Below are positions 37,235 through 49,661 of a stretch of DNA of 50,340 bases, one piece after another. Numbering within the stretch: position 1 is the stretch's first letter; each line of letters opens with the position of its first letter. The DNA lies in contig JACQDB010000028.1 of assembly GCA_016201275.1 (NCBI GenBank), positions 1-50,340 of the forward strand, written 5' to 3'. The stretch is from Acidobacteriota bacterium (GTDB lineage Bacteria > Acidobacteriota > Blastocatellia > UBA7656). The translations under genes and the position numbers were made by a program. The notes below the pieces were generated by a model. The model saw only the letters and a list, made by a program, of their open reading frames with translations. It was not told the DNA's origin and ran no database searches.

Positions 37235-37459
37235 GCCGCCGAATTATACATACTTCTTAGCTGCGTTCAATCCGACTCCTGGTTTGAGGACCTTGCTGCT
37301 GTCTGTGTTGTCTGCTAGGTGAGAGCAACCTTTTAAGAAAGGCCATGACTTGCCAGCGAAAGCCGATAACTTTTGCAACGAAGGCTTGCCGCTGGCGTTT
37401 TTTTAATGCTCAATGATATTTGAGAATCCTGCACGCCCGTGGACACAAAGGAGAAACTA

Positions 37460-39226
37460 ATGAAACGAGTGATTACGCTTGTCGCCCTGGCCTCTTGGTT
37501 GATGACGAGTTTGGTATCCGCGCAATCGCCTGCCCCTTTAAGCGCGCTGGCTAAAATGCCGGTCAAAGAAGTCACGATTTTCAAAGATGGTCATGCCTTC
37601 GTGCTGCACGAAGGAAAGATGCCTACGGATGGTGCGGGCAATGTCTTGATGGATTATCTGCCGACGCCGGTGCTAGGAACTTTCTGGCCGTACTCTGCTG
37701 ATAAAAATATCAAGCTCACCTCGGTTGTTGCCAGTGAACGCAAAGTGCTGATTGAGCGCACGGCATTGCGACTCATCGAAATGCTTGATGCCAATCGTGG
37801 CGCAGAAGTTATCCTCACCGAAAAACCTGCCTACATGGAAAAACCTGTGCCGTATGTGGCAACCCTGGTCGGCATACCGCGTCGCTCTTCGCAGGAACTC
37901 GAAGCCACCTCGCCACCTAACGCTGGCGAAAAGCTGCCGCAGAAAGGCGATGTCATTATTTTGAAAACCAGCGATGGCACCAAGGTCTTACCGCTTGAGC
38001 GCATACAGGACGTGACCTTCAAAAACGAGCCGAAGCCGACGGTCGGCGAAGAAGAGTTTCGCAACCTCCTGACCTTGAAACTGGATTGGTTGGGACGTAA
38101 TGCGGCGAAGACCGCCGAGGTTGGGTTGGTCTATTTGCAGCGAGGCTTGCGCTGGATTCCGAGTTATAAAATCACCCTCGATAATCAAGGCAACGCCAAC
38201 GTCAAATTGCAGGCGACGCTCATCAACGAGTTGGCCGATCTGGAAGATGTGACCGCAAACCTTGTGATCGGTGTGCCGACCTTTGCGTTCAAAGAAACCC
38301 TTGATCCGATTTCATTGCAGAAAGAGGCGACGCCATTATCCGGGTATTTTCAACAAAGCGACCGCTCGCAGTTGATGACGCAAAACGCCATCATGACGCA
38401 GACAGCGCGCATGGGCGAACGACGCGCCAACTCAATCAGCGACCAACCGACGGGCGACTTAGGCCCAGAAGTCACAGACGCAACGCAAAACGAAGATTTG
38501 TATTTGTTCACCGTCACCCACATCACCTTGAAAAAAGGCCAGCGCATGGCGTTGCCGGTGGCCGACTACACTGTGAAGTACAAAGATATCTACACGGTTG
38601 ACTTGCCGTTTTCGCCGCCTACGGATGTGCGTATGAATTTGAACAGCGAGCAGCAGGCCGAAATTGCGCGGCTGTTGAACGCGCCGAAAGCGACGCACAA
38701 GATTCGTTTGACCAATTCGAGCAACGCGCCGTTGACGACGGCTCCGGCGTTGATCGTCAAAGACGACCGCGTGTTGGCGCAAGGCATGATGACTTACACT
38801 TCGGTCGGTGGCAACGTGGATTTGGAAATCACCAGAGCGGTGGATATTCAGGTCGCCAAAAGCGAAAGCGAAACCGCACGCACACCGAACGCCACACGGC
38901 TGAACGGCGACACCTACACGCGGGTGGATTTGAATGGCTCGGTGAAACTGACCAACTATCGCAAAGAGACCGCCGACATCGAAGTGACGCGCTATGTGTT
39001 GGGCAACGTCACCAGCGCCACGCACAACGGCGAGGTGCGAAAAATCAACGTGATGGAAAGCGACCGCTACACGCCTATAGGCAACTATCCATCGTGGTGG
39101 GGCTGGTACAGTTGGCCTGCCTGGTGGTCGCAACTCAACGGCATAGGTCGCGTCAGTTGGAAAGTCAATCTCGAAGCGGGCAAGAGTGTGGATTTGAATT
39201 ACAACTGGAATTACTTCTGGCGTTGA
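37460..39226 (+). CDS. Exported DUF4139-like protein
   Basis: A protein of 588 residues. The ATG at 37460 is preferred to the GTG at 37439 because AAGGAG (37447-37452) is well placed and a signal peptide starts at once (VITLVALASWLMTSLVSA). The body resembles DUF4139-type proteins: VKEVTIFKDGHAFVLHEG at the N-terminus, RGLRWIPSYKITLDNQG in the middle, VTANLVIGVPTFAFK, and the late VKYKDIYTVDLPF with beta-sandwich repeats. These are predicted secreted beta-rich proteins with no known activity, sometimes called mucoidy inhibitor-like. It ends in a Trp-rich tail (SWWGWYSWPAWW). Alone in its transcription unit; two hairpin repeats follow. Confidence 0.82.
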   Translation: MKRVITLVALASWLMTSLVSAQSPAPLSALAKMPVKEVTIFKDGHAFVLHEGKMPTDGAGNVLMDYLPTPVLGTFWPYSADKNIKLTSVVASERKVLIERTALRLIEMLDANRGAEVILTEKPAYMEKPVPYVATLVGIPRRSSQELEATSPPNAGEKLPQKGDVIILKTSDGTKVLPLERIQDVTFKNEPKPTVGEEEFRNLLTLKLDWLGRNAAKTAEVGLVYLQRGLRWIPSYKITLDNQGNANVKLQATLINELADLEDVTANLVIGVPTFAFKETLDPISLQKEATPLSGYFQQSDRSQLMTQNAIMTQTARMGERRANSISDQPTGDLGPEVTDATQNEDLYLFTVTHITLKKGQRMALPVADYTVKYKDIYTVDLPFSPPTDVRMNLNSEQQAEIARLLNAPKATHKIRLTNSSNAPLTTAPALIVKDDRVLAQGMMTYTSVGGNVDLEITRAVDIQVAKSESETARTPNATRLNGDTYTRVDLNGSVKLTNYRKETADIEVTRYVLGNVTSATHNGEVRKINVMESDRYTPIGNYPSWWGWYSWPAWWSQLNGIGRVSWKVNLEAGKSVDLNYNWNYFWR

Positions 39227-39550: not shown

Positions 39551-40693
39551 TCAATCAAGCGTTTTAGTTTTCAGCGTCAGCAATTTTTCTACGATGTCAA
39601 AAGCGGCGCGAGGGCGTGCCATCTGCACAGCGTTCTGTTGCATCGTGAGAAAGCGCGATTTATCATCGAGCAACTTATCAATCTTGTAAGCCAAGACTGG
39701 AAGATTGTTGCAGCGAATCGCTGCGCCTTGCTCCAACAGATGATCCGAGTTGCGCTCTTCTTGTCCGGGAATCGGGTTGACAATCACAAACACCAAGCCC
39801 ATCGCTAAGGCTTCCGAGGTGGTCAGGCCGCCGGGCTTGCCTAACAAAATATCCGCCGCCGCCATGTACTCGTCCATCTCTGTCGTATAACCCAAAGCTT
39901 TCACCGCGACGTGATGATTTTTCGGAATGCTGCTGGAAATCTTTTCCACTTCGTTGTGCAATTCTTGGTTGCGGCCACAGACCGCGATGACTTGCGCGGG
40001 GTGTTGCAAATGCAGGAGCGCCTGCAAAATGTAATTGACGGGACCAACGCCGAAGCCTCCGGCAGATACCAATATCGTCGTACAATCTTGTTTGAGTTTA
40101 TGTTTGTCGCGCATTTCGCGTTGGTCTTGGCGACGCGAAAACAGCGGGTCAATCGGAATGCCGGTGGTGGTGATTTTGTTGGCGGCGATGCCGAGTTTTT
40201 CCAAGTAAACACGAGTCTCATCCAGCGCCACAAAATAGTGTTCGTAGTGATGACATAGCCACATGGCGTGGGCGTCCATATCGGTAACGACGATAGCTTG
40301 CGGACTGTTGAGCCGACCTTTGGCTTTCAACCACGACATAATTTCCGCTGGCAGAAAATGCGTGCAGATGGTGATGTCTGGCTGGTACTGCTCGATCATT
40401 TTGATGAACGGTCGGGCGTTGAGTTTATCGAAGGCCAAGCGGCGGCGTTCGTTCTTCCAAGGCTTATCGAATTGATCGTAGAGCCAGCCCAAAGCATCGG
40501 GAGCGCGGTTGACCAAATCAATATAGGCTTTTGAGTAGAGGGTGCGAAAAATTTTGTTGGTGTATTGCAGCGCGTCAACGTGGCGCACTTCTTCAGCCGC
40601 GTTCATCTCTGCGATGGCGCGCTCGATGGCTTGCGCGGCGCGTATGTGACCAGCCCCAGCGGAAGCCGATAAAATCAAAACTTTTTTGAACAT
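39551..40693 (-). CDS. MGDG synthase-like glycosyltransferase
   Basis: A GT-B fold glycosyltransferase of 380 residues, of the GT28 monogalactosyldiacylglycerol synthase/UgtP/MurG type. The N-terminal VLILSASAGAGHIRAAQAI is the acceptor-side signature of this group, followed by ITICTHFLPAEIMSWLKAKG and VVTDMDAHAMWLC. The donor-binding C-terminal half has ILVSAGGFGVGPV and ADILLGKPGGLTTSEALAMG. It most likely adds a sugar to diacylglycerol or a related lipid at the cytoplasmic face of the membrane. ATG at 40693, divergent from ada with 96 bp between the starts. The sugar donor cannot be told from sequence. Confidence 0.9.
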   Translation of the reverse strand: MFKKVLILSASAGAGHIRAAQAIERAIAEMNAAEEVRHVDALQYTNKIFRTLYSKAYIDLVNRAPDALGWLYDQFDKPWKNERRRLAFDKLNARPFIKMIEQYQPDITICTHFLPAEIMSWLKAKGRLNSPQAIVVTDMDAHAMWLCHHYEHYFVALDETRVYLEKLGIAANKITTTGIPIDPLFSRRQDQREMRDKHKLKQDCTTILVSAGGFGVGPVNYILQALLHLQHPAQVIAVCGRNQELHNEVEKISSSIPKNHHVAVKALGYTTEMDEYMAAADILLGKPGGLTTSEALAMGLVFVIVNPIPGQEERNSDHLLEQGAAIRCNNLPVLAYKIDKLLDDKSRFLTMQQNAVQMARPRAAFDIVEKLLTLKTKTLD

Positions 40694-42833: not shown

Positions 42834-45800
42834 ATGGATCAGATACCGGAAGCACCTTCATCTCAAGCAGGTTGGATAGCTCGGCATAAACGCCTGGTGA
42901 TCACCGGGTTGGTGGCTCTCCTGCTCATCGTTGTGGTCTTCTTCATAGCGACGTTCTACGTTCGCTCCGGGCGCTTGAATCGCTATATCATCGGCGAAGT
43001 GCAGACCGCGCTTACGGGATATGGCTTGCGCGCCGAAGTTGGCGACCTCGAATTGGTATGGGGCATTCGCACCGCCAAAGTTCACGATGTCAAAATCTAT
43101 AATCAGGAAACCGGCCAATTGGTGGCGACGCTTGACAGCGCCGAAGTGGTGGTAGAAATTCCCAACCCGTTTGCGTTGCGCTTGCAGCGCGAAATTATTT
43201 TCAAGCGCCTCGACCTAAAAAATCTGCAAGCTTATGTTGCGTTCGACGAGCAAGGCGTATCCAATTTCATCGGCTTGCACACGCCGCCGCCTGCCGCGCC
43301 CAGCCGCATCACCTTTGACTTTTCTAACCTCGTAGCGTCTATTGATGGCGGCACGTTGCACCTCGATGACCGCGCTCGCCGCATTACTGCCGATCTGGGA
43401 AAATTGAAAGCCAACGCGCAACCGATTGCCGGACAAGCCGTCATCAATCTGCAATTCAACGCCGACGAAGGCCAGCTTCGTTATGAAGGCCGCGACACCA
43501 CTTTGGAAAGCCTCGGCCTCACCGCTCAAGTGGGCGATGCAGGAGCCGCAATCGAGCAGTTGGTGTTTCGTTCGCCGCTCGGTGAAATCGCTGCCAAAGG
43601 GCGCGTGGATAACTGGCAAACGCCGCGCTACAACTTCGACATCCAGGCGCAAGTGAATCTCGATGAAACCGAGCGCGTCTTTGTGCCAGACATCGGCTTG
43701 CAGGGCAAGGCCACCTTCAACGGCACGGTCAATGGCGAAGCGGCGCATTACCGCATCAATGGTCGAGCGACTTCTGATGAACTCGTCGCTTCTGATGCGA
43801 CCGTGCGCGGTGCCAGCGTAGAAGAAATTTATGTCGAAAGCGATGAGGGACGCCTCACCTTTTCCAGCGGCGCGGCGCAGGCCGATGCGATTGACGCGCT
43901 GGGCAATCACTTATTGGATGTTCGGGTCAGCGGCTTGAGCGGCGATTATACCAAAGGCGTCACGCAGGCCAATGTGCCGCAACTCAATGTAGCGCGCGTG
44001 GCTTTGTCGCAAGGGCATATCGCTGGCCTTGCCTTGCGTAATCTTACGGCGCGCCTGGAAAACGGCAGAACGCAGGCGCGTGTGCAACAAGTGACCGCCA
44101 GAAGCCTGGCGCTGGCACAAGGGGAACTCTCGGATATTGTTCTGCAACACCTCGTCACCAATACCCAGAACGGACGCACGCAGGCGCAGGCGCAACAAGT
44201 GAAAGCGGCGCGCTTGAATTTGAAACAGGGAGAAATTTCCGGCATCAATGTCAATCAAGTTACGGCGACTCTGCAAGGCCAGCGTTATCAAGTCACCGGC
44301 GGACTCACCATCAATGGCGGCCAAGTATCAGGCGCGCAACTCGGACAGGCCAACGGCAAACTGGTCGCCGATAACACCACCGTCACTTTGAATCAATTCA
44401 CCGCTGCGGTTTTAGGCGGCACGGCGAGCGGCGATGTTAGCGTGCAAATCAGCGGCAACGGCGCGTCACGTCTGGCGGCAAAATTAACCGAGGTGAAGAC
44501 CGCCGCTCTGTTCAGCCTGATGGCGGTGACTCACAATCCGCTCACCGGCACGGTCAACGGCGAGGTCAATGTCAACTGGCCTGGCACCAACTTTGAAGCC
44601 ATCAGCGGCGATCTCAACGCTCATCTGACCGGTGCCACCACGCAGACCGAAAGCGCCATTCCGGTCAACGGCGAGGTTGCTATCAAAGCTCAAAGCGGCA
44701 CCTTCCAGGTTGAGCAATTGACGCTGGCAACGCCTGCTTCACAAGTGGTCGCTACCGGAACCCTCTCGTCCAAAGGCGACTCCGATTTGCAATTCACTTT
44801 GACCTCGACCAACGCCGCAGAATTACAGACCATCGCCTATTCCGTGAACGCTGTAAAAGAGGCGCTCGCCGATTTTCAGCCGCACCTGGCGGACCCCTTC
44901 AACTTTCAAGGCCGCGTCACCGGCAAGCTTTCCGACCCGACCATTGAAGGCGATGTGCAGGCCGCCAGCTTGGGCTTGCGCGAAGAGACGCTTGGCAGCT
45001 TGACCGGCCACGTCCTCGTGTCGCCCACGCAAGTGGCTTTTGAAAACGGCGTGCTGGCGATGCGTGATGGCGGCACGGCGAAAGTGAATTATTCCGCGCC
45101 GCGTGCGACGTTGGCTACGGAGGGTCGTCTGGATGCGACGCTGGATCGCGTCAATGTCGAAGCTCTGACGGCGGCAATGGGATTGTCCAATCAGCAATTC
45201 ATCTCCGGTCGGCTTTCCGGTGAAGCGCATTTGACCGGCTTGCCCAACGCACCAAACGGAACCGCAACGGTCAATCTTCTCGAAGGAACAGTGGCCGGAC
45301 AACCGGCGCAAGTGGCAACGGCAAATCTGCTTTTCGATGGTCGCACGGCGCGACTGGAACACAGCGAAATACGCCTTGCACAAGGGCAGTTGATGGCCAA
45401 CGGTACTTACGATCTCAAGAGCAAGGCGTTTCAATTGCAAGGCAATGCCGACAAGGTTGACCTCGGTCAACTCGTCGCTTCGCTCAAGGTTACAACGACT
45501 GTGAACGGCACCGCGAACGCGACCTTTCAAGCCAACGGCAACACCAACGATATAGGCGACCTCAACCTAGAATTAAAAGCGCAAGGACAAAACGTCACCA
45601 TCAACGGACGCGATGCCGGACAATTGAGCCTTACGGCGCACACCAATCCCGGCGGGCGCTTGGATATTGATCTTCTCACAGGCATAACCGGTAAGCCGCA
45701 ACCCTTGCGCGCCAGCGTCGAATTGCGGCGTCCCGGCAAGCCGCTTACGGTTGATGCGAACCTCGCTGATTTTGACCTCGCGCCGCTGGTTGCCGCCTTC

Positions 45801-48800
45801 GCTCCCGACCTGGCTTCTGCGATTGCCGGAGCGGTCAACGGCAGACTGCATATCGCTGGCCCTCTGGTGAATGACAAAGATGAATTGACGCCGGATGGTT
45901 TGCGCGGCGACCTGACCTTGAACAACATCGCGCTGCAAGTTCGCGGACGCGCCATCGCCATTCAAACGCCGTTCACCGTCGCTTTGAATGGCGCACAGTT
46001 GACCTTGTCGCAAACCCGCATCAGCGGACAAGGCATAGACCTGCGACTCGGCGGCACACTGGGATTGAAGGAAGGCGCGGGATTGAACTTCGCGTTGAAT
46101 GGCACGGCTACTCTTGACAGCCTTGGGCAATTCAATCCAGACCTGTTTCTTGGCGGCACCTTGGCGATTGATGCGCGGCTGACCGGCACCTTCAACAAGC
46201 CCGAATTGGGCGGCGAGATTCAAGCTAAGAATCTCTCCTTCACAGGCATTGATTTGCCGGTTTCCATAGAAGAAGGCAACGGGCGCTTGGTGTTTGCCGG
46301 CGATAAAGTCACGCTCGAAAATTTCACCGCACGCGCCAACGAAGGAAACTTCACGGCAAGCGGTTCTGCGACGCTCGCGCAACTGCAACCTCAAGAGTGG
46401 CAGTTCGTCGCCAACGCCAACAATGTTGATATTTTGTATCAGGGAATGCAGGCGGTAGTGAACGGCGACTTTACCCTTCGCGGCACTCCTGACCGGCAAG
46501 TGCTGGGCGGCACTCTCAACATTCCCGAAGGCGAATACACCACCAACCTAGACCTCTCCGGTTTGACGGCGGGTGGCGGCGCTGGCGCTGGCACCTTGAG
46601 TTTCGGCGGCGGCGGCGGCGCGCCCGGCAGCGCTGGCGGCTTTTTGAATTTGCCGCCCTTGAGCCTTGATCTGCACATCGAAGCGCCCGGCACGCTGTTG
46701 GTTCGCAATCAACAAATCAATACGGTTGCTTCCGCTGCTCTTGCGGTTGGCGGCACCTTCAACGATCCGTCTGTAACCGGACGAGTCAGCGTCGAAGGCG
46801 GCACCATCAAACTGCGCTCGCAACGCTATGACATCACCACAGGCACTTTGGATTTTCCTATAGGCGGCGATACGCCTCTCATCAATATTGCGACCGAAGG
46901 CGAGGTGAGCGGCTATCACGTTTATCTGGGATTAGAGGGGCCGATTGATGCTATGGAAGTGAACTTGCGCTCGGACCCGGATTTGCCGCGCTCCGAAATT
47001 CTGTCGCTCGTGGCGACCGGCAAAACCGATTCCAGCACGCTCGGCAGTCAAGACATACTGGCTTCCGGCCTTGGCACGGCGGCGTCGTTGTTATCGGAAG
47101 AATTTATTTCGCAACCGGCGCAGTCGTTGCTTGGCCTCAACCGCTTTCAAATTGATCCGGTCTTGCAACCCAACGCCAACCCGGCGGCGCGCTTGACGAT
47201 TGGCAAACAACTGACCCGCGACCTCGCCTTCACCTATTCGACCAACGTCGGCTCGGAGCAGGATCAAAGCGTCATTCTGGAATACACCTTGACCAATCGC
47301 TTCTCCGGCATTGCCTCTTACACGCAGGGCGGCACGGTGATCAACGGGGCGCGCACCAATAGCGATTTCACCATAGAGATGCGCGGTCGCCGCCGCTTTT
47401 CATTGGGCTATGTGCAGGTCACTGCCAACGCCGTAGGCACAACCAACGCCGGCGCTGGCAGCGTGCCGCCGCGTCGTGAGCGCACCCCCAAACCCGCCGC
47501 CGAGGTTGCCCTAAACAAACCCGATGAGTTGAAGTTGAGCGAGAAAAAATTGCGCGAGTTGCTGCCCGTCGAAGTCGCTGGCTTCAGCCGTCCGCTGGCG
47601 CGTTTGGGCGAACGCAATTTGACCAACTACCTACAGGAACGCGGTTACTTTTTTGCTGCGGTGCGCTCTCGATGCGAGCCTGCCGATTGCCGCGGGACGA
47701 ATATCAAAGTGTTTTATGATGTGTCGCCCGGCCCGCGCTACGACCTTGACGACATCCGCATAGAAGGCACCGATTTGCTTGATGTGGCCGATGTCGCGCC
47801 AAAACTGCAATCCAAAAAAGCGTCGTTTTTTGGCGGCGTGCCTATTGTCAAAAATCTGCCCTTGGTTGGCGGCCTGGCGCGTGGCATCACCAGCGACGAC
47901 CGCATACGCCGCGACCGCGAGACCATTCGCAGCTACATGGCGGATTTGGGTTTTCGCTCGGCGCGAGTGTCTCATCGCATAGAAACCAAGCCGCAGCGCG
48001 AAGACCTCGTGCTGGTCTTTACCGTAGAGCCGGGGGCGCGCTCGACCGTGGCACAAGTGTTTTTCAAGGGCAACAGCGTGGTGTCGTCCGACGAGTTGCG
48101 TCGCGCCATACCGATTCAAGTGAATAAACCGTTTTCGCCCACCGAGGTGCGCGATGGCAATCGTCTCATCAAACGGCTCTATGCAGATAAAGGGTATCTG
48201 GAAGCCACTACACAATATCGTGTGGTGGATATGGACACCGACCGCGTTGGCTTGGTCTATGAAATCAACGAAGGCAGCCGCGCTTTGGTTGCCGACATCA
48301 ACATCGAAGGCGAAACCAAAACCCGCGAAGCCGCCATCCGCCGCTTCTTCGCTTTCAAACCGGGCGACCTCCTGACCCCTGCCAAGATTCGCCGCACCCA
48401 ACGCGATCTGTTTGCCACCGGCGCTTTCAGCGAAGTCAATATACAGGCTCAAGCGGTTAATCCGCAGGAACCGGAGGCGCGCCAGGTGACGGTTCACCTC
48501 ACCGAGGCCAAGCCGCTGTTGATGATTTACGGCATCGGGTATTCCAGCGACGAAGGACCACGCGGATTGCTGCAATTTACCAACACCAATCTGTTCGGCC
48601 AAGTCAATTCGCTGTCGCTCAGAATGCGCGCCAGTTTCCGTGAGCAGTTGGTGCAGTTGCAATACATTGATCCGCGCATCTTCGGCAGTCAGTGGGGAGC
48701 TACGGTGTCGGCCTTTTATGATCGCAACTCGAACCTGCAAACTTTTTTGCAGCGGCGATTGGTGACCGGCGGCAGAACGGCCAATAGTGGGCCGGGCTTT

Positions 48801-49661
48801 GGCATCAATCGCTTCGTTGCTTTCCTGCAGGCCGAGCGAAAATTTTCCGACATCACTTCGATGCGCTTGCGTTACAGCATCGAACACACCCGCCTGTTCA
48901 ATGTGCAGAACATTCCTGTCGAAGAGATTGCTCGCAACGCCCAGGCCGTGCGCCTCGGACAATTTTCGGCAGGCTTCACCCACGACACGCGAGACTCGGC
49001 GCTCAATCCGACCAAAGGGCAACTCATCAGCTTCGATCATTCGCTGGCGGCGCGACCCTTTGGCGGCAACGAAGCCTTCAATAAGTTTTACCTCAACTAT
49101 CAACACTATACGCAATTGGCGCGTCAGACGCCGGTGCTGCGCGATTCGGTCTTGGCGTTTGCCGGACGTTTGGGTTTGGCCGCGCCTTACGCGATACGCG
49201 GCAGCGGCGCAGGCGGGGCGATCACCGCTTCCGATAGATTGTTGCCGCTCAGTGCGCGCTTCTTTTCCGGCGGCGCGACGACCTTGCGCGGTTTCCAGTT
49301 TGAACAGGCCGGACCGCAAGCCATACTCGAACCGCGCAATGCTAAAGAATTGCCAACGCTAGTGCCGTTGGGCGGCGATGGACTGGTGGTGCTGAATTTT
49401 GAATTGCGTTACCCGCTCACCACTCAATTGCGACTGGTGCCGTTTTACGATCTCGGCAATGTCTTTCGCAAAGTGAGCGACATCCAGTTCAACAATATGA
49501 CGCACAGCATCGGCCTGGGCTTGCGCTTGAACACGCCCATCGGCCCTATAGGCATAGATTACGGTTACCTGCTCAATCCGCCGTCGTTTACCAGCGCCAC
49601 CGGATTGATCATTCGCCAGCCGCAGGGCGTCATACACATTCGCTTCGGTCAGACGTTTTGA
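42834..49661 (+). CDS. TamB-Omp85 (TamA/BamA) fusion, envelope-spanning translocation/assembly protein
   Basis: One uninterrupted frame of 2275 residues. Residues about 20-43 are a single inner-membrane helix (LVITGLVALLLIVVVFFIA). From about 50 to 1240 come repeated beta-strand segments like the TamB beta-taco groove (GTVNGEAAHYRINGRATS, NGTANATFQANGNTNDIGD). A Gly-rich linker lies at about 1245-1275. At about 1276-1520 is a TamB C-terminal (DUF490-like) domain with LDLHIEAPGTLLVRN, VGGTFNDPSVTGRV and LRSDPDLPRSEILSLVATG. From about 1567 to 1892 are four POTRA-like repeats (IRIEGTDLLDVADV, VFFKGNSVVSSDELRRAIPI, INIEGETKTREAAIRRFF). From about 1893 to the end is an Omp85 barrel with the L6 motif LRGF (2151-2154) and terminal aromatic HIRFGQTF. 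In Proteobacteria TamA and TamB are two proteins. The start codon has no clear Shine-Dalgarno. Confidence 0.93.
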   Translation: MDQIPEAPSSQAGWIARHKRLVITGLVALLLIVVVFFIATFYVRSGRLNRYIIGEVQTALTGYGLRAEVGDLELVWGIRTAKVHDVKIYNQETGQLVATLDSAEVVVEIPNPFALRLQREIIFKRLDLKNLQAYVAFDEQGVSNFIGLHTPPPAAPSRITFDFSNLVASIDGGTLHLDDRARRITADLGKLKANAQPIAGQAVINLQFNADEGQLRYEGRDTTLESLGLTAQVGDAGAAIEQLVFRSPLGEIAAKGRVDNWQTPRYNFDIQAQVNLDETERVFVPDIGLQGKATFNGTVNGEAAHYRINGRATSDELVASDATVRGASVEEIYVESDEGRLTFSSGAAQADAIDALGNHLLDVRVSGLSGDYTKGVTQANVPQLNVARVALSQGHIAGLALRNLTARLENGRTQARVQQVTARSLALAQGELSDIVLQHLVTNTQNGRTQAQAQQVKAARLNLKQGEISGINVNQVTATLQGQRYQVTGGLTINGGQVSGAQLGQANGKLVADNTTVTLNQFTAAVLGGTASGDVSVQISGNGASRLAAKLTEVKTAALFSLMAVTHNPLTGTVNGEVNVNWPGTNFEAISGDLNAHLTGATTQTESAIPVNGEVAIKAQSGTFQVEQLTLATPASQVVATGTLSSKGDSDLQFTLTSTNAAELQTIAYSVNAVKEALADFQPHLADPFNFQGRVTGKLSDPTIEGDVQAASLGLREETLGSLTGHVLVSPTQVAFENGVLAMRDGGTAKVNYSAPRATLATEGRLDATLDRVNVEALTAAMGLSNQQFISGRLSGEAHLTGLPNAPNGTATVNLLEGTVAGQPAQVATANLLFDGRTARLEHSEIRLAQGQLMANGTYDLKSKAFQLQGNADKVDLGQLVASLKVTTTVNGTANATFQANGNTNDIGDLNLELKAQGQNVTINGRDAGQLSLTAHTNPGGRLDIDLLTGITGKPQPLRASVELRRPGKPLTVDANLADFDLAPLVAAFAPDLASAIAGAVNGRLHIAGPLVNDKDELTPDGLRGDLTLNNIALQVRGRAIAIQTPFTVALNGAQLTLSQTRISGQGIDLRLGGTLGLKEGAGLNFALNGTATLDSLGQFNPDLFLGGTLAIDARLTGTFNKPELGGEIQAKNLSFTGIDLPVSIEEGNGRLVFAGDKVTLENFTARANEGNFTASGSATLAQLQPQEWQFVANANNVDILYQGMQAVVNGDFTLRGTPDRQVLGGTLNIPEGEYTTNLDLSGLTAGGGAGAGTLSFGGGGGAPGSAGGFLNLPPLSLDLHIEAPGTLLVRNQQINTVASAALAVGGTFNDPSVTGRVSVEGGTIKLRSQRYDITTGTLDFPIGGDTPLINIATEGEVSGYHVYLGLEGPIDAMEVNLRSDPDLPRSEILSLVATGKTDSSTLGSQDILASGLGTAASLLSEEFISQPAQSLLGLNRFQIDPVLQPNANPAARLTIGKQLTRDLAFTYSTNVGSEQDQSVILEYTLTNRFSGIASYTQGGTVINGARTNSDFTIEMRGRRRFSLGYVQVTANAVGTTNAGAGSVPPRRERTPKPAAEVALNKPDELKLSEKKLRELLPVEVAGFSRPLARLGERNLTNYLQERGYFFAAVRSRCEPADCRGTNIKVFYDVSPGPRYDLDDIRIEGTDLLDVADVAPKLQSKKASFFGGVPIVKNLPLVGGLARGITSDDRIRRDRETIRSYMADLGFRSARVSHRIETKPQREDLVLVFTVEPGARSTVAQVFFKGNSVVSSDELRRAIPIQVNKPFSPTEVRDGNRLIKRLYADKGYLEATTQYRVVDMDTDRVGLVYEINEGSRALVADINIEGETKTREAAIRRFFAFKPGDLLTPAKIRRTQRDLFATGAFSEVNIQAQAVNPQEPEARQVTVHLTEAKPLLMIYGIGYSSDEGPRGLLQFTNTNLFGQVNSLSLRMRASFREQLVQLQYIDPRIFGSQWGATVSAFYDRNSNLQTFLQRRLVTGGRTANSGPGFGINRFVAFLQAERKFSDITSMRLRYSIEHTRLFNVQNIPVEEIARNAQAVRLGQFSAGFTHDTRDSALNPTKGQLISFDHSLAARPFGGNEAFNKFYLNYQHYTQLARQTPVLRDSVLAFAGRLGLAAPYAIRGSGAGGAITASDRLLPLSARFFSGGATTLRGFQFEQAGPQAILEPRNAKELPTLVPLGGDGLVVLNFELRYPLTTQLRLVPFYDLGNVFRKVSDIQFNNMTHSIGLGLRLNTPIGPIGIDYGYLLNPPSFTSATGLIIRQPQGVIHIRFGQTF

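Follow-up and report, generated by a model that had tools for sequence, protein, structure and literature searches.

The stretch of DNA analysed here (the window, 50,340 nucleotides) comes from a genome of the Blastocatellia, a class of Acidobacteriota, and contains a single open frame of 2275 codons, free of internal stops, in which a TamB half is followed by an Omp85 half. Such a combination had been proposed in a sequence-only reading of the window, and the profile searches bore it out. The Pfam TamB model PF04357 matched residues 1163–1499 (E 3.3e-39, 135.7 bits vs. a cut-off of 22.4) and the Omp85 model PF01103 matched residues 1919–2275 (E 7.1e-47, 160.9 bits vs. a cut-off of 24), both well above threshold. 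The borders given in that reading (TamB domain at 1276–1520, barrel after 1893) fit the PF04357 match and a first barrel strand modelled at ca. 1895. The four POTRA-like repeats, the LRGF motif and the C-terminal aromatic residue that it listed correspond to four stretches of PF07244 (E 2.7e-40), to LRGF at residues 2151–2154 and to a final Phe. The chain is ordered as an N-terminal hydrophobic helix, the TamB body, the TamB C-terminal domain, a linker, four POTRAs and the Omp85 barrel:

42834..49661, plus strand: fused tamB-omp85 gene, 2275 aa (frame and profile matches)
42894..42962, plus strand: N-terminal helix, residues ~21–43 (hydropathy; putatively in the inner membrane)
42963..46988, plus strand: TamB periplasmic beta-rich body, residues 44–1385 (frame, Pfam; AlphaFold2 from residue 1080 on)
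46320..47330, plus strand: PF04357 TamB domain, residues 1163–1499 (Pfam)
46989..47399, plus strand: TamB C-terminal domain, residues 1386–1522 (AlphaFold2 secondary structure, mostly low pLDDT)
47361..47399, plus strand: retained final TamB strand SDFTIEMRGRRRF, residues 1510–1522 (alignment; model strand 1510–1518)
47400..47504, plus strand: linker, 35 aa (alignment; unstructured in the model)
47499..48506, plus strand: four POTRAs, residues ~1556–1631, 1637–1732, 1738–1812 and 1818–1891 (Pfam, AlphaFold2)
47670..47690, plus strand: RCEPADC with two POTRA1 cysteines (invariant in 10/10 rows of the window-type alignment)
48516..49658, plus strand: Omp85 barrel, residues 1895–2275, ending in Phe (Pfam, model, TamA fold match)
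49284–49295, plus strand: LRGF motif, residues 2151–2154, inside the Omp85 barrel

The gene is flanked in the window by an Ada-type regulator and a hydrolase, and in three relatives by SelB, a histidine kinase and a NACHT protein, so that no neighbour common to these few scanned loci was seen. Further upstream there is a glycosyltransferase resembling MGDG/diglucosyl-diacylglycerol synthases (39551–40693, minus strand). This would put a lipid enzyme close to a protein presumed to transport lipid, although any link between the two is putative. A 595-residue frame (37439–39226, plus strand) matched neither Pfam nor NCBIfam models at the thresholds applied.

Identity of the two halves and their junction

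PF04357 is as a rule a C-terminal domain, unlike the situation here, where the chain runs more than 750 residues beyond it. Hydropathy over 19-residue stretches was strongest at the N-terminus (peak 3.24, stretches spanning residues 18–48); past residue 60 the maximum was 1.57, at residue 983, and no signal-peptide-like stretch was found at the TamB/Omp85 junction. The two contact partners are thus covalently joined in one chain, as had been claimed. The same reading took the Omp85 half for a TamA, and here it fails: the half scored 106.1 bits against the TamA model NF047950 (cut-off 625) and narrowly passed the BamA model TIGR03303 (303.4 bits vs. 297.15). It nevertheless lacks the BamA hallmarks of an own signal peptide and five POTRAs, having no signal stretch at the junction and four POTRAs. 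Judged by its sequence against the curated models, it is a BamA-like, TamB-linked paralogue and not a TamA. The TamB half fell short of the E. coli-type TamB equivalog NF047952 (90.1 bits, cut-off 825), as did a split TamB of the same genome (56.9 bits).

AlphaFold2 models were built for residues 1080–2275 (10 sequences) and 1380–2275 (9 sequences) and were of moderate quality (mean pLDDT 65.8 and 64.5, pTM 0.43 and 0.50, respectively). The TamB C-terminal domain appeared as two helices with six strands in the second model and five in the first, the linker was unstructured in both, and four beta-alpha-alpha-beta-beta POTRAs led into a barrel of 16 main strands by our count. The best solved fold match of the second model, over its POTRA2-barrel part, was P. 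aeruginosa TamA (Z 22.3, 512 residues, rmsd 5.3 Å). Three BamA-barrel fold matches of the first model began at a TamB strand, as if it were inserted at the barrel seam, but this was not repeated in the second model and we have discarded it. No TamB chain was found among the best 50 fold matches of either model, lists that test mainly the POTRA-barrel part.

Similar fused frames fall into three types (see below), which we call the window type, the large clade and, after its family group, the f26 pair. The split TamBs, encoded by separate genes, end in an aromatic residue in 33 of 39 cases (KRF in 20/39). At the same position all 12 window-type fused proteins retain a strand whose last two residues are RF or YF, and the aromatic residue is kept in both f26 proteins and in 18 of the 29 large-clade proteins. 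That the strand is kept in every fused protein was ruled out by a recount, as the aromatic end is absent in the other 11. In the window, SDFTIEMRGRRRF lies where split TamBs have their C-terminal strand and is followed by the 35-residue linker. The profile of TamB C-terminal domains aligns to E. coli TamB just up to residue 1175, so the equivalence with its last strand (strand 6) is drawn from the position of the strand and the composition of the domain.

The linker measures 29–35 aa in the nine of ten window-type alignment rows that include it (the window and eight relatives), about 14–34 and mostly 15–22 residues in the large clade, and about 45 and 56 in the two f26 proteins (the last two types judged by eye). 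From the TamB end to the barrel there are 374–391 residues in the window type (n = 12), 417–456 in the large clade (n = 29) and 617–618 in f26 (n = 2), which fit four, five and seven POTRAs, respectively. Pfam detected four POTRA stretches in the window protein and seven in one f26 protein; two large-clade proteins gave three and five. The two cysteines of RCEPADC, in the first POTRA past the linker, are a possible disulfide pair.

In four ortholog pairs dN/dS was 0.06–0.23 across the TamB, POTRA and barrel segments (most dS near or above 1); for the linker it was 0.19 and 0.30 in the two computable pairs (30 codons, dS above 1). On these substitution ratios the fused frame is kept under purifying selection.

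Distribution and origin of the fused genes

In the host assembly (162 contigs, 98.7% complete) TamB was matched twice, by the fused frame and by a split TamB on contig 30. Omp85 was matched three times, by the fused frame, by a barrel protein encoded immediately after that split TamB (324.2 bits against TIGR03303) and by a protein on contig 8, the BamA (410.4 bits). The split pair has the order tamB-omp85 with 39 bases between and both genes in the same reading frame (L036, 5237–12472). The search for separate tamA, tamB and bamA genes suggested by the sequence-only reading thus found a split tamB-omp85 pair and a BamA, while the Omp85 half that it called TamA is not one by the curated model. 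In this genome the fusion is an extra translocation and assembly module (TAM) beside a split TAM-like pair and BamA, and with the split pair also kept, the job of the fused copy may be narrower. Two genomes of another family (G213 and G216 of f70; loci L125 and L126) also have split tamB and omp85 in a shared frame, with a single stop between them; such same-frame pairs are one or two steps away from a fused frame.

We sampled three phyla, that of the window and those of a Cryomorphaceae and a Chlamydiae record from a scan of named genomes, a sample that lies outside the Proteobacteria. In the window's phylum, 171 of 199 genomes had a TamB match and, among the matches listed, 34 TamB frames in 33 genomes reached 2000 residues or more. 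Both halves were present in 33 of these 34, that is, in at least 32 of the 199 genomes and in 18 family groups. Single proteins with both profiles are therefore no lone oddity in the phylum, with at least 33 such frames. One of the 33 (L070) is cut inside the barrel by a contig end. The remaining long frame (L058, genome G064) covers TamB and POTRAs and has its barrel match in another frame, indicating that the reading frame shifts, or the sequence is in error, close to the barrel. Among the matches listed, the fused frame was the sole TamB match in 17 of the 32 fused genomes. Two genomes (G119 and G033, 98–99% complete) had just two Omp85 matches each, one fused and the other unfused, taken as BamA. 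Two others carry two fused copies each (G334 with L107 and L136, G196 with L042 and L052).

Searching the class with the whole protein recovered an intact fused frame in 11 of 162 genomes, the window's included (12 copies), distributed as 2/7 genomes in family f1, 2/4 in f69 and 7/11 in f72. In two more class genomes, G329 and G330 of f72, both halves run off contig ends. Carriers in f1 and f69 have fused and split TamB together. In f72 the fused gene is the sole TamB match in six genomes (G328, G331 and G335–G338), G334 has only its two fused copies, and G332 and G333 have only a split TamB. Fused and split TamB thus appear to exclude each other in f72, all 11 genomes of which (G328–G338, several incomplete) carry one or the other and none both. 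The named-genome scan gave 14 loci: nine of the window type (eight whole frames), two Acidobacteria without a fused frame, and three distant ones from Chlamydiae and Cryomorphaceae. Given their probable overlap with the sampled genomes, these loci were left out of the fused counts. In the phylum of the Cryomorphaceae record (198 genomes) no TamB frame among the matches listed exceeded 1862 aa. In that of the Chlamydiae record (79 genomes) 39 had a TamB match, and 38 of these frames were of 1351 aa or less. The other (G616:C13) is given as 48949 residues, perhaps a quirk of the record.

Trees were computed from joined TamB C-terminal and barrel alignments by quick searches, without bootstrap or an outgroup root. 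A tree of 58 loci (33 fused, 25 split) required three changes between fused and split states, all forced by well-supported branches, and the window and its nearest relative fell among split pairs of their own class. Placing all 33 fused loci in one clade against the 25 split rows was rejected by the AU test (p 1.7e-6), which rules out a single fused clade for the phylum. A single clade for the window-type and large-clade loci was also rejected (p 1.3e-5; f26 pair excluded on both sides, grouping post hoc). The enlarged set of 78 loci (43 fused, 35 split) required four changes, three of them forced. In its tree the 12 window-type loci grouped together (support 100), with the split pairs of family f2 as their sister group (99). 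The TamB C-terminal domain or the barrel alone gave the same f2 sister (96 and 99), but just two forced changes. By our count, tamB comes first in 29 of the 35 split loci and the order is reversed in six; within the window's class it comes first in 19 of 19, the same order as in the fusion. From residue ~1550 on, the window protein matches split Omp85s from their residue ~250–380 on in all nine compared, and the N-terminal part of these, signal peptide included, has no counterpart in it. With Pfam, the split partner in the window's genome shows four POTRA stretches, as many as the fused protein, and each of three further split Omp85s from the class shows five; such counts do not settle the number lost, which by length is about three.

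From these trees, tamB and omp85 appear to have been fused separately at least three times within Acidobacteriota. They are best read as showing that the window type arose inside the Blastocatellia by in-frame fusion of an adjacent tamB-omp85 pair, in which the Omp85 half probably lost its signal peptide and some N-terminal POTRAs, about three by length. We prefer fusions to splits because the opposite direction needs many splits and because of these lost parts. A single ancient fusion followed by many splits is a scenario to which we give little credence. The trees have no outgroup root, and counts of changes alone cannot separate gain from loss. Neither does the rejection of a single fused clade (p 1.7e-6), which speaks against the scenario, thereby exclude splits. 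However, up to about ten splits would be needed on the 78-locus tree, each regaining a signal peptide, those in the window clade would also have to regain N-terminal POTRAs, and the TamB-to-barrel spans lie in three separate ranges. Still less room is left for an artefact, i.e., a missed stop, a frameshift or an assembly join of two neighbouring genes. Split tamB-omp85 pairs do adjoin, and in the two f70 genomes one in-frame stop is all that separates them. Nevertheless, ten other genomes of the class have the fused frame with an alignable junction, the frame is under purifying selection, and the window has no signal-peptide-like stretch at the junction. The possibility of a missed stop or join, which the sequence-only reading had asked to be checked, is refuted by this conservation and selection, and we regard its probability as negligible.

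A probable translocation and assembly module in one polypeptide

With a probability of roughly 0.64, we consider that the fused frame encodes a complete TAM in one polypeptide. This reading gains support because both families lie well above their cut-offs in one frame, because that frame is intact in 11 of 162 class genomes and under purifying selection, and because it is the only TamB match in six f72 genomes and in 17 of the 32 listed genomes of the phylum. It is further supported because G119 and G033 manage with one fused and one unfused Omp85, because the last TamB strand is kept in 12/12 window-type and 2/2 f26 proteins (and its aromatic in 18/29 of the large clade), because the two helices and six strands of the second model match E. 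coli TamB (PMC12800296), and because the POTRA2-barrel part best matches the fold of P. aeruginosa TamA. In such a module the N-terminal helix would sit in the inner membrane, the TamB groove would carry phospholipid across the periplasm, as the role reported for TamB suggests (PMC12800296; PMC10665443), and the BamA-like barrel would receive TamB at the outer membrane. Less surely, the last strand of TamB, now internal, might pair with the first strand of its own barrel, the linker of 29–35 residues allowing the chain to run back from the barrel to POTRA1. If it lies as the last strand of closed barrels does, the TamB strand would be expected to end on the periplasmic side, and by simple arithmetic ~30 stretched residues could span roughly 100 Å. 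As the final strand is still there in the window type, its pairing in cis, with the barrel of its own chain, is plausible. The linkers of the large clade may be too short for this if the POTRA arm is extended; these short linkers and the 11 of 29 proteins without the aromatic residue make cis pairing less sure in that clade. A fuller proposal can be put forward only tentatively, at less than even odds: that at least three fusions each produced a self-engaging machine in which the terminal strand of TamB has become an internal signal strand in the lateral gate of its own barrel, one protein bridging the inner and outer membranes entirely by itself and serving as the sole TAM in many species.

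Two other arrangements have to be weighed against this. TamB and barrel might be disengaged, or engaged in trans, the fusion serving mainly to hold the parts near 1:1 with the strand outside its own barrel; we think this possible, though doubtful. It would suit the short linkers seen by eye in the large clade and the 11 of its 29 proteins without an aromatic strand end. The fold matches of the second model give no sign of strand insertion, and in E. coli TamAB the non-hybrid state is about as common as the hybrid one (PMC12800296). What argues against it is the retention of the strand in every window-type and f26 protein although it is no longer a terminus. Alternatively, the product could be a polyprotein, exported whole and then cut in the linker to yield an ordinary two-piece TAM. 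A variable linker that is unstructured in the model would agree with this, but the junction has no hydrophobic stretch for signal peptidase, no conserved site was seen in nine linkers and their length is narrow, making a cut unlikely.

The one-chain TAM has several relatives among known systems. In E. coli, separate TamA and TamB form a 1:1 complex by cryo-EM, in one of its two states the last TamB strand pairs with TamA beta1, TamB strands 3–6 fold inside the TamA barrel, and the TamB C-terminal domain consists of two helices and six strands (PMC12800296). The sequence-only reading's fixed 1:1 bridge holds insofar as the halves are joined in one chain, but the 1:1 ratio is already found with separate proteins. 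The fused protein shares with E. coli TamAB a TamB with an N-terminal helix, a beta-rich body and (in the second model) the same C-terminal domain, an Omp85 partner with POTRAs and, in the window type, the final TamB strand; it differs in being one chain with a BamA-like Omp85 half, four POTRAs instead of three and a TamB C-terminus that is not free (PMC12800296). In Acidobacteria, a second BamA linked with TamB in an operon and a few very long TamBs have been reported (Heinz et al., 2015; PMC4494059). The families and the phylum are the same and the host still carries such a tamB-omp85 pair, but in the protein described here the halves are fused, with no signal peptide on the Omp85 half and, by length, about three N-terminal POTRAs fewer. 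In the available text of that paper we found no mention of a fusion, the two occurrences of “fus” being Fusobacteria.

The hybrid BAM-TAM of Borrelia burgdorferi also partners TamB with BamA, and modelling suggests that TamB strands complete the BamA barrel, but there the two are separate proteins (PMC13382580). Transenvelope MlaD of Veillonella parvula, a proposed phospholipid bridge, resembles the fused protein in combining an inner-membrane helix and an outer-membrane barrel in one chain, but it belongs to the MCE family and is a modelled hexamer with a small barrel and no TamB, POTRA or Omp85 (PMC10665443). An Omp85 with a WD40-like domain is likewise reminiscent of a fusion with a partner, BamB, but contains no TamB and is confined to the outer membrane (Heinz and Lithgow, 2014; PMC4104836). 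Neither “fusion” nor “fused” appears as a word in PMC12800296, PMC11014939, PMC12045153 or PMC13382580, and in the open PMC literature, as far as its text was available (subscription papers and preprints lying outside this scope), we found no description of a TamB-Omp85 fusion. The families and their pairing were already known, and the repeated origin is the main new point.

The joined chain limits models of how TamB hands over lipid or barrel substrates to the outer membrane: any step in which TamB leaves its Omp85 partner must fit within the reach of the linker. Repeated fusions with differing POTRA numbers and linker lengths are natural variants with which to ask whether contact of the TamB strand with the lateral gate is required. 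Where a genome has no TamB match other than the fused protein, separate TamB and Omp85 parts would seem dispensable. The apparently repeated joining of two proteins that usually occupy different membranes and meet between them amounts to a natural test of how the pair works.
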